64,000 nucleotides of DNA. Origin: Rhodobacter maris (GTDB lineage Bacteria > Pseudomonadota > Alphaproteobacteria > Rhodobacterales > Rhodobacteraceae). Both the position numbers and the translations under genes were made by a program. Of the stretch, positions 51,614 to 56,422 are shown piece by piece (within the stretch, counting starts at the first letter, position 1; every line of letters starts with the position of its first letter). Under the pieces are notes generated by a model, which made no database searches, had not been told where the DNA came from, and was given only the letters and a program-made list of their open reading frames with translations. Location of the stretch: assembly GCF_900217815.1 (NCBI RefSeq), contig NZ_OBMT01000001.1, positions 372,001-436,000 on the forward strand, written 5' to 3'.

Positions 51614-52453
51614 ATGAGCCTGCACATTTTCCTCGCGGTGCTCTCCGCCGCTTTCCTGCATGCGCTCTGGAACGCCCTTTTGCGCTTTGGCGGGTCAAAA
51701 ATCCGCGCCATGGTAATGCTGAGCCTGATGGAAGCTTTGGTCGGCCTTGCCATCGCGCTGGCCCGTCCCCTCCCCGAGCCGGCAGCATGGAAATGGGTCG
51801 CCGCCGCCTGCCTCGTGCATTTTGCCTACAAGTATTTTCTTGCCCACGCCTATGAACAGGGCGATCTGAGCCGGGTCTATCCGATCGCGCGCGGCACCGC
51901 ACCGATGCTTGTGGCCATTGTCACGGCGCTTCTGGCGCTCGATGTGGTGCGCCCGCTCGGCTACCTCGGTGTCGGCGTGCTCGGGCTCGGCATCCTCTTC
52001 ATGGCGCGCGGCGTTTTTACCGATGGCGAGAGCCGGCGGCTGCTGCCCTATGCCTTCGGCTCCGCCTGCGCGACGGCCACCTACACCCTCACCGACGGGC
52101 TCGGCGCCCGGGTGGCGGGCGATGCGGCAGGCTATGTCGGCTGGCTGATGGTCGGAGGCGGGCTGCTCTTTGGCCTCACCATGAGCTTGCGCCGTCCGAA
52201 GGGGTTTCTGACGCTTTCGCCCGCCCGCGACTGGGGCATGGCGGCCCTTGGCGCGGCGGCCTCCTACGGCGCCTATGCGATCTCGATCTGGGCTATGACG
52301 AAGGCGCCGATTGCGCTCGTCGCGGCCACGCGGGAAACCGCGATCCTGTTTGCGGTGCTGATCGGTTGGCTCGCCTTTGGCGAGCGGATGACGCGCTCGA
52401 AAGCGATTGCGGCGGTGCTGATCGTGGCGGGCGTGGTGCTGACGCGGCTTTAG
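51614..52453 (+). CDS. DMT-superfamily permease (EamA type)
   Basis: A 279-residue protein with about ten membrane helices in two EamA repeats: ALWNALLRFGGSKI and AYKYFLAHAYEQGDLSRVYPIARGTAPM in the first, ISIWAMTKAPIALVAATRETAILFAVLIGWLAFGERM in the second. The family exports metabolites, often amino-acid-related; the substrate is not determined. Its stop overlaps the pcs stop on the other strand by four bases. Confidence 0.84.
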   Translation: MSLHIFLAVLSAAFLHALWNALLRFGGSKIRAMVMLSLMEALVGLAIALARPLPEPAAWKWVAAACLVHFAYKYFLAHAYEQGDLSRVYPIARGTAPMLVAIVTALLALDVVRPLGYLGVGVLGLGILFMARGVFTDGESRRLLPYAFGSACATATYTLTDGLGARVAGDAAGYVGWLMVGGGLLFGLTMSLRRPKGFLTLSPARDWGMAALGAAASYGAYAISIWAMTKAPIALVAATRETAILFAVLIGWLAFGERMTRSKAIAAVLIVAGVVLTRL

Positions 52454-53148
52454 TCGGCGTGCCGCGCCGGGAAGATCTGCTGCAAGATCCCCGCGCCGAG
52501 CAGATAGACCGAGGTCACGACAAGACCCCAATGCGCCCAGCTCCCCTCATGGAAATTCACCCAGGCCGCCCAAGCGGCAAACACCGTCCACAAGAGTGCG
52601 GTGCTGAGCGAGAGCGGGCGCCAGCGTTTCGTGCGCGTGGGATGGATGAACTTGAGGGGAAAGAACATCGCCACTGCCAGCGCCAGCACCACGGCAAGCG
52701 TCACCCAATAGCCCGGGCTGATCGCGAACAGCACCAGCACCACCATGTTCCAGCACGCCGGAAAGCCGGAGAAGGAACAGTCTTTCGTCTTCATCCGGGT
52801 ATCGGCGAAATAGATCACGCTCAGATAGGTGATGGCGATGATCGCGAGCCAGCCGGTCCAGCCGGGCAGCAGACCGGATTTGAAGAGCGCATAAGCGGGA
52901 ATGAAGACATAGGTCAGGTAGTCGATGATCAGATCCATCAACACCCCGTCATAGGTGGGGCAGTTGGTCTTCACCTCATAGCGGCGCGCGAGCGGCCCGT
53001 CGATGCCATCGACGACGAGCGCCACCACGAGCCACAGAAACATCAGCGACCATTTCTCTTCCACGGCCGCCAGCATCGCCAGCATCGAAAGCACCGCACC
53101 GGTGGCGGTAAAAAGGTGAACCGAGAGCGCCTTGATACGAATGTCCAT
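52450..53148 (-). CDS. pcs: Phosphatidylcholine synthase
   Basis: A 232-residue CDP-alcohol phosphatidyltransferase with eight or so membrane helices. It condenses CDP-diacylglycerol with choline to give phosphatidylcholine. The active site motif D-x2-D-G-x2-A-R-x8-...-D-x3-D is visible as DGIDGPLARRYEVK with TYDGVLMDLIIDY. The blocks PTYDGVLMDL and YVFIPAYALF mark the Pcs subgroup. It is found in alphaproteobacteria that make phosphatidylcholine in one step. Confidence 0.92.
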   Translation of the reverse strand: MDIRIKALSVHLFTATGAVLSMLAMLAAVEEKWSLMFLWLVVALVVDGIDGPLARRYEVKTNCPTYDGVLMDLIIDYLTYVFIPAYALFKSGLLPGWTGWLAIIAITYLSVIYFADTRMKTKDCSFSGFPACWNMVVLVLFAISPGYWVTLAVVLALAVAMFFPLKFIHPTRTKRWRPLSLSTALLWTVFAAWAAWVNFHEGSWAHWGLVVTSVYLLGAGILQQIFPARHAD

Positions 53149-53219
53149 GGCCCTTCCTGCCGCAAACCCCCGGAGCGCGCAAGGCGCCGCGGGCAGAAGC
53201 GCTTCCTTTGCCGCCCGCT

Positions 53220-53615
53220 TCAGCGGATTCCGTTCAGGAGCGCCTTATATTGCTGCGAGAGCACGCCGCCGGACATGGTGTCGCGCGCGGTCCCCTCCGC
53301 ATTGTTCCGCGCCGAAAAGAGCGACTCGGCAAGCGAGGGGGGGGCCAATCCTTCCGCGGGTGCGAGAGACCCGGTTTCGGACCGGGGCATCGCCACCGCC
53401 TCGGCCCCCGCCCCGTCCCCGTCCCCGGCCCCGGCGACAGGATCGACACTGGCCAGTGCCATCACCAGAGCCTGCATCTCCGCACTGCCTGAAGGCGCGA
53501 GCATCTCCTCGAAACTGACGGAAGCGGCGGGTGGAGAGGGGCTCGGCGGCGCAGCCGCCACCGTGCTCGCGGTGCTTTGCGTGCCGAGACCGGAAAGCTG
53601 CGGTAGATCCATCAT
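53220..53615 (-). CDS. Hypothetical protein, 131 residues
   Basis: A Pro/Ser/Ala-rich protein with no signal peptide or membrane segment. It begins MMDLPQLSGLGTQSTAS, has a short helical stretch (VSFEEMLAPSGSAEMQALVMALASV), an Asp/Gly/Ala-rich patch (GAGDGDGAGAEA) and a C-terminus GGVLSQQYKALLNGIR. GGGGGACAG precedes the ATG at 53615. It is next to the EF-hand protein gene on the same strand. The C-terminal segment recalls the end of flagellar rod-binding proteins, but this is too weak to call. I do not know the function. Confidence 0.6.
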   Translation of the reverse strand: MMDLPQLSGLGTQSTASTVAAAPPSPSPPAASVSFEEMLAPSGSAEMQALVMALASVDPVAGAGDGDGAGAEAVAMPRSETGSLAPAEGLAPPSLAESLFSARNNAEGTARDTMSGGVLSQQYKALLNGIR

Positions 53616-53748
53616 TCTGTCCCCCTGGCGACGGTTTGGCGCCACTATGCCCGGACGGGGTGAAGGCGGGCTTACTGCGCGCCGCCCCGTTGCGGTGCAT
53701 TGTCTTCATTGTCCGTCGCCGCTCCCCCGAGCCTGGACGGAAAAGATC

Positions 53749-53774
53749 CGGGCCGGAGCGAAGCCCCCGGCCCG
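53749..53774 (-). terminator. Terminator after the EF-hand gene
   Basis: An 8-bp stem CGGGCCGG / CCGGCCCG with a 10-nt loop lies about 20 bases after the EF-hand stop. On the minus strand it is followed by ATCTTTTCC. The following 53220 gene therefore probably has its own promoter. Confidence 0.7.
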
Positions 53775-53794
53775 AACGCTGGGTCACGCGTGAC

Positions 53795-54676
53795 TCAGGA
53801 GATTTCCTCGAGCAGCGACATGAACTGGTTCGCAAGGTCGCGGTCGAGGGAGACGCTGCTGGAGTTGTCATCCTGGGTGGCCAGAGCGTTGAAGAGCGAC
53901 TCATAAAGCGATTGAGCCGTGGTCTCGGTGCTGGTCGAGGAGGTGCCGCTGTCACTTTCTGTGTCTTCAGCCCCCGGCGGCGGGCCGGAAGGCGGCGGCG
54001 GCATGGCTCCCTGGGCGCCGCCCGCGCCCTGGGACCGGCTCGCGGCTTCTGCCGTATCGAGCTCGGTTTCGCTCAGCAGGCCATCCCCGTCGCTGTCGAT
54101 GGTCGAGAACTGGCTCGACAGCAGGTCGGCCACGGGGCTGGCTGCAATTTCCGTTTCGGAAAGCAGACCGTCCCCGTCCGTATCATCGTTGGTCGAAAGC
54201 GCTTCGAACAACGAGGTGATGTCATCCTCTGTTTCCTCCGAGGACTCCGACGGCGGCGGGCCGGGCGGCGGCGGGGGCCGCGAGCCCTGCGCCTCGCTCG
54301 TTCCACCGGACCGGCTCGCGGCTTCTGCCGTGTCGAGCTCGGTCTGGTTCAGCAGACCATCGCCATCGCTGTCGATCGTCGAGAACTGGCTCGACAGCAG
54401 GTCTGCCACGGGGCTGGCTGCGACTTCCGTTTCGGAAAGCAGACCATCCCCGTCGGTATCGTCGTTCGTGGCAAGCGCCTCGAACAGGGATTGGGAATCC
54501 GCACCGCCCGAGCTGGACGCGGGCGGCGGCGGGGGCGGCGGCGGCGAACCGCTGCTCTGCGTCGTGGTCGTGGAACTGGTGCTTTGCGTCGTGCTGCTGG
54601 AGGAGGATTGCTTCAACAGCGCAAGCGCCGTGCTGCTGGAATAGCCAGACAGCGAAGAGAGGGAAGAGACGTTCAT
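53795..54676 (-). CDS. Duplicated four-EF-hand calcium-binding protein
   Basis: A 293-residue protein built from a repeat. Four canonical EF-hand loops are seen: 73-84 (DTDGDGLLSETE), 102-113 (DSDGDGLLNQTE), 165-176 (DTDGDGLLSETE) and 194-205 (DSDGDGLLSETE). The two pairs have a period of 92 residues, separated by Pro-rich linkers (44-52, 133-142, 226-234). A third unit (260-293) keeps SLFNALATQDD but has lost its loop. The N-terminus is Ser/Thr-rich (MNVSSLSSLSG...). No Sec signal is seen. Calcium binding is very likely; location and partner are unknown. GAAAGGATCTCTG precedes the start. Confidence 0.85.
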   Translation of the reverse strand: MNVSSLSSLSGYSSSTALALLKQSSSSSTTQSTSSTTTTQSSGSPPPPPPPPASSSGGADSQSLFEALATNDDTDGDGLLSETEVAASPVADLLSSQFSTIDSDGDGLLNQTELDTAEAASRSGGTSEAQGSRPPPPPGPPPSESSEETEDDITSLFEALSTNDDTDGDGLLSETEIAASPVADLLSSQFSTIDSDGDGLLSETELDTAEAASRSQGAGGAQGAMPPPPSGPPPGAEDTESDSGTSSTSTETTAQSLYESLFNALATQDDNSSSVSLDRDLANQFMSLLEEIS

Positions 54677-54792
54677 CAGAGATCCTTTCTGGATGACAAC
54701 GTGCCCTGAGGCTCGTCTGGACTGATGAACGACTCCTTACCCAGGCCATAAACCTTGGTTTGAAAAGGTTCTGATTTTATTGGGTTATACTA
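54677..54792 (-). promoter_or_regulatory. Upstream region of the EF-hand gene
   Basis: This A+T-rich 116-bp gap between xerC and the EF-hand gene holds AAACC-TT-GGTTT (54750-54761), a 5-bp inverted repeat, and an A+T-rich block beyond it. It probably contains the EF-hand promoter, but no -35/-10 pair is convincing. Confidence 0.35.
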
Positions 54793-55716
54793 TCAGGCGC
54801 GCGGATGGGCCGCCTGATAGACTTCCATGAGGCGGGCCGAATCGACGGCCGTGTAGACCTGCGTGGTGGCAAGGCTCGCATGCCCCAGCAACTCCTGGAT
54901 CGCCCGCAGATCACCGCCCGCGGACAACAGATGCGTGGCAAAGCTGTGGCGCAACGCATGCGGCGTGGCAGAAGCCGGCAGGCCAAGCGCGAGCCGCGCG
55001 CGTTCCATCGACTTGGCAACGATGCGCGGGTTGAGCGCGCCACCGCGGCTGCCGCGGAACACCGGTTCCCAGGGCGCGGGCACGAAGGGGCAGAGCCGCA
55101 GATATTCGGCCATCGCATCGCGCGCCGCGGGCAGCACCGGCACCATCCGTTCCTTGTCGCCCTTGCCGCGGATGCGCAGCACTTCGGGCAGCGGCACGTC
55201 TTCGCCCTTGAGGCTGAGCGCCTCGGAGATCCGCAGCCCGCAGCCGTAAAGGAGCGTCATCACCGCCGCGTCGCGCGCGGCCACCCAAGGCTCGTTGGCC
55301 TGCAACTCCACCTGTTCGATCACCGCCTGCGCCGCATCTTCGGCGAGCGGACGGGGCAGGTTGCGCTGATATTTGGGCGCGCGGGTCGAGAGCACATGGG
55401 TGGCGTCGAACCCCTCGCGCTCAGCCAGCCAGCGCATGAAGCTTTTCACCGCCGAGAGCGCCCGGGCGAGCGAGCGGCCCGACAGGCCACGGTTGCGCTC
55501 ATAGGCCATCCAGGCGCGCATATCGGCGGGGGTAAGCTCGCCCAGCCGTGCCATGCCCAGGCTTTCGCCGTAATGCAGATGCAAGAAGCCGAGAAAGCCG
55601 CTCACATCGTTGCGATAGGCGGTCAACGTATGCGGAGAGGCCCCCTTGAGCGCGCGCATATGCTCAAGCCAGCGCCCGAGCGCCATGCCCGCGGCGGGCG
55701 AAAATCCGATGCCCAT
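54793..55716 (-). CDS. xerC: Tyrosine recombinase XerC
   Basis: A 307-residue tyrosine recombinase. The N-terminal SAM-like domain (about 10-95) precedes the catalytic domain with the R-K-H-R-H-Y set: GCGLRISEALSL (R), GKGDKERMVP (K), HALRHSFATHLL (H-R), ELLGHASLATTQVYT (H and tyrosine). It resolves chromosome dimers at dif with XerD. The ATG at 55716 starts two bases before the end of DUF484 (translational coupling), an arrangement common in proteobacteria. Confidence 0.93.
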   Translation of the reverse strand: MGIGFSPAAGMALGRWLEHMRALKGASPHTLTAYRNDVSGFLGFLHLHYGESLGMARLGELTPADMRAWMAYERNRGLSGRSLARALSAVKSFMRWLAEREGFDATHVLSTRAPKYQRNLPRPLAEDAAQAVIEQVELQANEPWVAARDAAVMTLLYGCGLRISEALSLKGEDVPLPEVLRIRGKGDKERMVPVLPAARDAMAEYLRLCPFVPAPWEPVFRGSRGGALNPRIVAKSMERARLALGLPASATPHALRHSFATHLLSAGGDLRAIQELLGHASLATTQVYTAVDSARLMEVYQAAHPRA

Positions 55717-55717
55717 G

Positions 55718-56422
55718 TCAGGCCAGCCAGCGCCGCATCGCGCGCTCAAACACGCCCGCAAAGAAGGCCAGAAGGTCCGTGCCCTGCGAGGGTTTGAACT
55801 GGTGCGGATCTTCCGCGCCCATCACCAGCATGCCCGGCAGACGGCCTTCGCCAAGATCGAGCCGCATCAGCGCTTCCGAGCGCACCCAGGTCGAGGCCTC
55901 GCCGTAGATCGTTTCCGACTGCGGCAGGGTCTGGCGCAGAACCACGGGGCGCAATTGCGAGCCCTTGCCCGAGCGCATGTATTCCGCGATGAACCCCGGC
56001 TCAGCGACGCAAAGCACATTGCCAAGGCGGCGCAGCGCGACCTCTTCGCCCTCCTGCTCGGTCTCAAGCACGAGTTTGACACTGTCGACGCGCAGGATGT
56101 CGGCCACTTCGGTGGCAAGGTTCTTCAGGAAGGTCTCGAACTCGATCGGGTCGAGCATGCGCAGCACCGCGCGGTGGATCTGGTTGGTGCCGGCGAGGTT
56201 TTCATAGGCGGCCGCGATCACCGAGCGATGCGTGTCTTCGAGGCGGTCGAGTCGGCGTTCGAGCCGCTCCATCGCCACGCCGCGCAGATCGACGATATTG
56301 GCGCCCATGGCGCGTTCATTGGCCGAGATCAGAGCCCGCATCAGGTCGCGATCCTCGAGGATCACATCGGGGTCGTTGATGATCTTGGTGCGGAGTTCGG
56401 GTGCAAATGCCGTGTCGCTCAT
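55718..56422 (-). CDS. DUF484 family protein
   Basis: A 234-residue protein with an N-terminal helical part (LRTKIINDPDVILEDRDLMRALI, then a coiled-coil-like stretch to about 70) and a GAF-like C-terminal domain (LGNVLCVAEPGFIAEYM ... LGEGRLPGMLVMGAEDPHQFKPSQGTDLLAFFAGVFERAMRRWL). The family sits beside xerC in many proteobacteria and its function is not established. A perfect TTAA-N7-TTAA site lies 50-64 bases upstream. Confidence 0.87.
   Translation of the reverse strand: MSDTAFAPELRTKIINDPDVILEDRDLMRALISANERAMGANIVDLRGVAMERLERRLDRLEDTHRSVIAAAYENLAGTNQIHRAVLRMLDPIEFETFLKNLATEVADILRVDSVKLVLETEQEGEEVALRRLGNVLCVAEPGFIAEYMRSGKGSQLRPVVLRQTLPQSETIYGEASTWVRSEALMRLDLGEGRLPGMLVMGAEDPHQFKPSQGTDLLAFFAGVFERAMRRWLA

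Follow-up and report, generated by a model that had tools for sequence, protein, structure and literature searches.

Among the open reading frames (ORFs) of a 64,000-nucleotide stretch of the Rhodobacter maris genome (contig NZ_OBMT01000001.1, positions 372,001 to 436,000; hereafter the window), one encodes a 293-residue protein carrying two closely similar pairs of EF hands. The gene lies at 53795..54676 on the minus strand, exactly where an initial annotation had placed it, and is supported by its open frame, by Pfam and by orthologues in the same slot of other Rhodobacter genomes. How did the protein come to carry its EF hands in duplicate, what stays constant around them, and what controls its synthesis? 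In the explanation proposed here, held with about even confidence, it would be a self-contained, translationally gated, calsymin-like Ca2+-binding protein, in which EF-hand pairs behave as cartridges between conserved ends. New in this analysis is a 5' leader for which base-pairing over the start codon is predicted, and whose alignment in nine species shows covariation. The species comparison uses one genome per species and includes 18 congeneric genomes, among them the one under study, which groups with Rhodobacter. G000 denotes this genome and the other G numbers the compared relatives, such as R. aestuarii DSM 19945 (G002) and R. capsulatus DSM 1710 (G011). Coordinates refer to the window; features are on the minus strand, unless otherwise indicated.

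Protein layout and EF-hand pairs

From its N terminus onwards, the protein features a conserved N-terminal segment, a Ser/Thr tract, two EF-hand pairs borne by linkers rich in proline, and a C-terminal module. The N-terminal segment (residues 1-25; 54602..54676) is 74-83% identical, over residues 1-23, among the three species with two pairs; a helix is predicted at residues 14-25, with a low predicted local distance difference test score (pLDDT). A polyproline run follows at residues 45-52 (54521..54544), and proline-rich stretches are also present in relatives. Pair 1 spans residues 62-122 (54311..54493), with loops at 73-84 and 102-113, and pair 2 residues 154-214 (54035..54217), with loops at 165-176 and 194-205. 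The strict loop pattern D.D.DG.....E starts at residues 73, 102, 165 and 194: against these four occurrences, 20,000 shuffles of the protein gave a mean of 0.00155 and a maximum of one per shuffle.

Curated cut-offs, together with the canonical loops, place the protein in the Pfam EF-hand family: bit scores (cut-offs in brackets) are 53 (30) for PF13499, 40.2 (25.4) for PF00036, 36.9 (25) for PF13405 and 33.1 (25.9) for PF13202, while EF-hand_8 (PF13833) stays below, with 25.2 bits vs 28. Solved structures, compared by sequence, gave three weak matches, to a NADH dehydrogenase subunit (0.0023) and to a putative calcium-binding protein (0.0056 and 0.0059). Judged from its sequence, the protein very probably binds Ca2+. 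As the initial annotation had remarked, no hydrophobic Sec signal peptide is evident, upon inspection by eye, without a predictor run; that the protein is exported seems doubtful.

Occupancy of the xerC-pcs slot

The gene is located in a slot whose upstream border is xerC (54793..55761) and whose downstream border is pcs (52450..53148), named as phosphatidylcholine synthase from NCBIfam matches below cut-offs. The two border genes adjoin each other in 18/18 congeneric genomes. In eight of them (G003-G007, G010, G015, G016) the slot is empty, 45-89 nt long; six (G001, G008, G009, G011, G012, G014) contain one EF pair and three (G000, G002, G017) contain two. The remaining one, G013, features an orthologue of 114 residues (locus L067, from an MNVTS start), where both ends and a proline-rich linker are kept and no EF hand is found. 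Variation in the number of EF pairs between species is thus supported by these genomes.

A profile of the C-terminal module finds matches in four of the 394 family genomes at E<=0.01: one is G000, and the other three (G265, G292, G117) all have their match in the same slot. A strong pcs match is found in 167 of the 198 family genomes, and the survey was widened to 60 further regions upstream of pcs taken from these. xerC is beside pcs in 52 of the 60, with a gap of 250 nt or less in 46; two of the six larger gaps hold proline-rich EF proteins (G131, G091), while in the other four no EF protein was seen among the ORFs oriented like xerC and pcs. The proteins of G131 (L124) and G091 (L130), from other genera, are very divergent, and feature, by eye, one and three EF loops. 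Similarity to the C-terminal profile is supported in G131 (0/1000 shuffles score as high) and weak in G091 (20/1000); an EF protein of G034, also considered as a C-terminal relative, was discarded, as 907/1000 shuffles score as high. It seems that the gene has long occupied the slot and has been retained patchily. A phage origin was rejected, 50,697 phage records giving no match at E<=1e-3. Six Rhodobacter genomes without the slot gene carry separate EF proteins that have four loops and what look like signal peptides (L015, L016, L020, L024, L025, L026).

Canonical EF pairs, with no signal peptide seen by eye, would also suit a soluble cytoplasmic Ca2+ buffer or sensor, similar in role to calerythrin or CabC, whose termini only solubilise or dimerise the protein. 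The conservation of both ends in the EF-less orthologue of G013, however, suggests that they have a function of their own, and compact buffers do not usually have long linkers rich in proline or Ser/Thr: this alternative is considered somewhat unlikely.

A leader RNA predicted to fold over the start codon

The 5' leader and the first codons of the gene (54659..54741) are predicted to form an RNA element with a stem over the start codon, as indicated by stem statistics, covariation, a covariance model and folding. In G000, a 10-bp core stem joins 54722-54731 with 54670-54679, the ribosome-binding site being located in a small inner hairpin: CGTTCATCAG, upstream of a 23-nt block, pairs with CTGATGAACG over the start codon. 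Parts of the gap between xerC and the gene are conserved between clades, despite large synonymous differences in the coding units (0.5-0.7); the block is identical in G000, G011 and G017. It is not found elsewhere in these three genomes, with up to three mismatches, nor in the gene-less G005 and G010.

The stem is 10 bp long in G000, 14 bp in G002 and G017, 9 bp in G001, and 8-10 bp, including G-U pairs, in the R. capsulatus group. In seven of the nine EF-bearing Rhodobacter species (G000, G001, G002, G008, G009, G011, G017) it is longer than in shuffled upstream DNA (p<0.05). When 48 filtered ORFs of the window are compared for their start-codon stems, the gene ranks best (10.0; next 8.0; mean 5.2, s.d. 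1.5). Upon alignment of the nine species, 88.2% of the cells pair, and both sides are changed in 6 of the 19 pairs; the covariation score, 0.329, is reached by 0/500 shuffles, and ranges from 0.048 to 0.114 when slid. Six of the nine leaders were folded: those of the two-pair species have z-scores of -3.7, -5.5 and -6.2.

A covariance model, searched in 101 relatives with the stricter filters applied to more than 40 genomes, finds the element in nine, exactly its nine training species; the search therefore tests absence elsewhere, not presence. The EF-less G013 and the eight gene-less species have no match to the model. Outside the training set, G292 (3e-10) and G265 (4e-5) are matched. Rfam 15, compared with positions 53100-55000 at E<=1, gave 0 matches. 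Taken together, the data make it quite probable that the leader structure is real and conserved. Weak matches of the model in three R. capsulatus-group genomes (E 0.03-0.08) lie antisense within what appears to be a coding gene of polysaccharide type, and are probably due to chance; they fall at positions 1501-1577 of L189, L190 and L191, and in G009 and G011 their distance from the slot is about 14 kb.

The stem region is near-palindromic, and the opposite strand gives a weak match to the leader model (17.9 bits), as would be expected of an inverted repeat acting at the DNA level, as a protein-binding site, or arising as a by-product of arm-matching mutation, with no RNA switch involved. U-G pairs, on the other hand, are kept in 4/9 species at one position and in 2/9 at another, the commonest pair being U-A or C-G, and pairing in DNA is therefore disfavoured; moreover, the ribosome-binding site lies between the arms, and the start codon is part of them. 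A DNA-level origin is considered quite unlikely, and a stem in the mRNA is the preferred reading.

Duplication and probable homogenisation of the EF units

A 236-nt DNA repeat, at a spacing of 276 nt and with 85% identity, underlies the two pairs, each copy encoding one: the 276-bp period reported by the initial annotation is thus confirmed. The same annotation described two near-identical units of 92 residues, joined by polyproline linkers. Two EF pairs with four canonical loops are indeed present, as are proline-rich linkers. Near-identity is limited to the 58-residue cores, which share 54 of 58 residues (93%, by eye) and 88.5% of their DNA; the linkers, of about 30 residues, diverge, evolving much faster than the cores, and the 92-residue unit is therefore not near-identical as a whole. 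Unit spacing itself varies, from 92 residues in G000 and G017 to 101 in G002.

An internal duplication is supported by the DNA repeats, and by an unrooted tree of xerC and pcs in which the three two-pair species are set apart from all others (support 100); large parts of the backbone elsewhere are weak. In all three, pair 2 is preceded by a DITSLFEAL lead-in, unlike pair 1. This common lead-in indicates one ancestral duplication.

Comparison of the first (u1) and second (u2) units is suggestive of later exchange. In G000, u1 and u2 are 88.5% identical in nucleotides, with a synonymous difference of 0.37 and a ratio of nonsynonymous to synonymous change (dN/dS) of 0.06, while the synonymous difference of its u1 from u1 of G002 and G017 is 0.69 and 0.60. 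Each unit of G000 thus resembles the other more closely than it resembles the corresponding unit of either sister species, and the units appear to recombine. In G002 and G017 the second units are mutually closest (83.9%), and the overall pattern is mixed. These relationships fit a later homogenisation of the two units in G000; an independent duplication in G000 is a less likely alternative. Over all unit pairs that could be computed, dN/dS is 0.04-0.38. EF units are 80-90% identical between two-pair species: N- and C-terminal ends and both units are conserved, while the linkers are free to vary.

The C-terminal module

Residues 253-293 (53798..53920) form a C-terminal module with two predicted helices and no EF loop, defined by conservation, profile and structure model; the helices are placed by AlphaFold2 at 248-270 and 279-292, in a model which is poor overall. 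The initial annotation had taken this segment for a third EF unit in decay, and its SLFNALATQDD does resemble the SLFEALATNDD lead-in of a unit: the 12-residue match has a shuffle p of 0.003 in G000, 0.0005 in G001 and 0.0015 in G265. In G011, G008 and G292, the resemblance is not significant (p 0.08-0.23).

The module, however, occurs in relatives with zero, one and two pairs, as a separate and conserved unit. Nine of the 14 positions invariant among eight relatives fall within it (L257, Y258, S260, A264, R279, Q284, F285, L288, L289). Between two-pair species it is 70-73% identical, with nonsynonymous differences of 0.14-0.16 vs synonymous ones of 0.51-0.69, a signature of purifying selection in these sequences; EF units are somewhat more conserved than the module, which is nearly as constrained. 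An array of three tandem units with the last one decayed is thus contradicted as a recent event and regarded as very unlikely: the module is almost certainly not a recent decay product. An ancient common origin of module and EF unit is possible.

Neighbouring features

A GC-rich, terminator-like stem-loop of 13 bp (53746..53777), found by a stem-loop scan, directly follows the stop codon. Such sites number 3 in the region vs 1.8 expected in shuffles, so that the prediction is weak alone, the count being not above chance; nine relatives, when folded, also feature stable stems within the first 80 nt after the stop. A dyad, AAACCWWGGTTT (54750..54761, no strand assigned), was located by pattern search just upstream of the leader. 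One site is present in G000, G002, G011 and G017, and two in G009; but for the extra G009 site, it is located only at the slot, and none is found in the gene-less G005 and G010. The reversed control pattern matches once, in G002. By eye, G008 and G014 have an imperfect dyad, and none is seen in G001, G012, G013, G265 and G292. The dyad is a possible operator or part of a promoter. With a terminator-like stem-loop after the stop and leader and dyad upstream, the gene looks like a transcription unit of its own.

Between the gene and pcs, an ORF of 130 residues (MDLPQLSGL...; 53220..53612) has no EF hand; its C-terminal part resembles the C-terminal module of the EF protein. The SLxESLFxA segment scores 7.0-7.5 bits against the C-terminal profile, with 0/1000 shuffles as high for each of the three sequences compared. 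Counterparts occupy the slots of G002 and G017, and none was seen in the remaining slots listed, no genome-wide search having been made. The ORF evolves fast (34-54% identity), and the G017 counterpart is missing its final portion. The ORF may represent a paralogue without EF hands.

Proposed explanation

In this reading the protein is laid out like calsymin: its EF-hand pairs are strung like beads along proline-rich linkers, with a conserved N-terminal segment on one side and a conserved helical C-terminal module on the other. Both of these would remain constant, while the pairs, as cartridges, would be gained, lost and homogenised by recombination, to give zero, one or two in Rhodobacter. 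The mRNA leader would fold the start codon into a long stem, thereby gating translation: with the start codon inside the stem, the protein is probably made only once the stem is opened, which might be brought about by heat or by RNase processing, or else by a regulatory RNA or a protein. In the finished protein, each EF pair would bind up to two Ca2+ and become ordered, so that the number of pairs would set the Ca2+ capacity, and the C-terminal module would dock to a partner. What the data show directly are the layout of the protein, its slot, the number of pairs in each species, the conserved ends and the covarying leader; we infer Ca2+ binding, translational gating and docking, and export without Sec is speculative.

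The leader is recognisable in 9/9 EF-bearing Rhodobacter species, with a clear stem in seven, and is not detected in the EF-less G013. This distribution suggests that the switch and Ca2+ binding belong to a single regulatory unit, in which the opening could, for instance, depend on Ca2+ or stress. In its most specific form, the proposal is that a new cis-acting RNA element, known so far from a single Rhodobacter locus and also recognised in two neighbouring genera, keeps shut the start codon of a cartridge-type Ca2+-binding protein; put this way it is tentative, and unlikely to hold in all its parts.

Several observations weigh against this explanation. The gene is absent from 8/18 species, and the EF-less orthologue of G013 indicates that the locus can do without Ca2+ binding; the AlphaFold2 model is poor overall, with a mean pLDDT of 58.7. 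Stem length does not differ significantly from shuffles in G012 (p 0.41), is borderline in G014 (p 0.066), and again falls short of significance in G013, G265, G292 and G117; the G013 leader, when folded, also pairs its start codon, via a different stem. The covariation score stands out more than the numbers of both-side-changed pairs and of additional pair types, for which 54/500 and 40/500 shuffles are as high, and fold z-scores are -2.4 in G011, -1.0 in G008 and +0.6 in G001. The nine model species match the leader model by construction, and the G265 and G292 matches are mainly through sequence. A stem of 10-14 bp may be too stable for simple opening. Finally, no expression, binding or localisation data on the gene were found.

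The locus provides a graded set made by nature: close relatives carry zero, one or two EF pairs in one and the same slot, along with a predicted on/off RNA switch, and the genus includes the laboratory organism R. capsulatus. The roles of EF-hand number and of non-Sec bacterial EF proteins thereby become directly testable.

Comparison with known systems

The gene was not found among the matches listed in the literature on R. capsulatus EF hands, XopAW, EF-hand duplication and Rhodobacter RNA thermometers. EfhP of Pseudomonas aeruginosa is similar in having two EF-hand loops; unlike the protein described here, it is reported (PMC4053335) to have a transmembrane segment, with EF hands predicted to be periplasmic.

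XopAW (NF041410) is the best NCBIfam match, and shares the EF hands. Its score of 66.5 bits, with no Sec signal seen by eye and a conserved Ser-rich N terminus, would be compatible with a XopAW-type effector or a substrate of flagellar (type III) export, whose N terminus acts as signal, and which leaves the cell unfolded and folds on Ca2+ outside. The cut-off of the model, however, is 120 bits, and the one-pair R. capsulatus protein scores 33.3; N- and C-termini alone have no NCBIfam match. The same model matches 160 of the 198 family genomes at E<=1e-8, none over the cut-off, through proteins that, where inspected (e.g. G016, G027, G029, G033), look like Sec-secreted EF proteins. Membership in the XopAW family was rejected, on the score, on the weak matches to many EF proteins and on the unmatched termini; nor are EF proteins uncommon in this family of bacteria. 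G000 has one FHIPEP gene, on a contig with flagellar rod genes, and read as flagellar; no injectisome was seen, its other parts having not been searched. With a single export-gate gene, on a flagellar contig, an injectisome effector is unlikely. Rod genes and the export-gate gene are present in 15 of 16 genomes (15 with the slot gene, and G034), the exception being G001. Yet FHIPEP is found in 8/8 gene-less and 9/10 gene-bearing congeneric genomes, so that co-occurrence is uninformative. Flagellar export of the protein is conceivable; as an overall account, export by this route or as an effector is judged unlikely. In G001 the slot gene is present, while FHIPEP and flagellar rod genes were not found, in an assembly 81% complete.

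The leader is comparable to RNA thermometers and other leaders that occlude the start site, such as ROSE and fourU as generally described, where the 5' leader pairs with the translation start. It differs in that the stem is over the start codon, and not mainly over the ribosome-binding site, and is long, stable and without an Rfam match.

Calsymin (CasA) of Rhizobium etli has EF-hand pairs within each domain, and no known Sec signal. Plasmid comparison gave a single weak match, a protein of Rhizobium sp. 11515TR, aligned only with residues 73-209 (30.3% identity, 47% of the query, E 4e-7). This protein (L102, plasmid NZ_CP022999.1) is Ser-rich, with duplicated EF pairs in a calsymin-like layout; the PLSDB table gives one feature for the whole record. 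Calsymin is described in a passage of PMC10574481 as having three domains of predicted EF-hand motifs, and as secreted or exported in statements of PMC9860679 and PMC6421345, the former of which gives it two EF-hand motifs. Its symbiosis-specific expression is a difference. Like calsymin, the R. maris protein carries several EF-hand domains along one chain, here two pairs. Membership is not claimed, the likeness being one of layout, not of alignment with calsymin; by this analogy, calsymin is the known protein that it would resemble most in the way it works.
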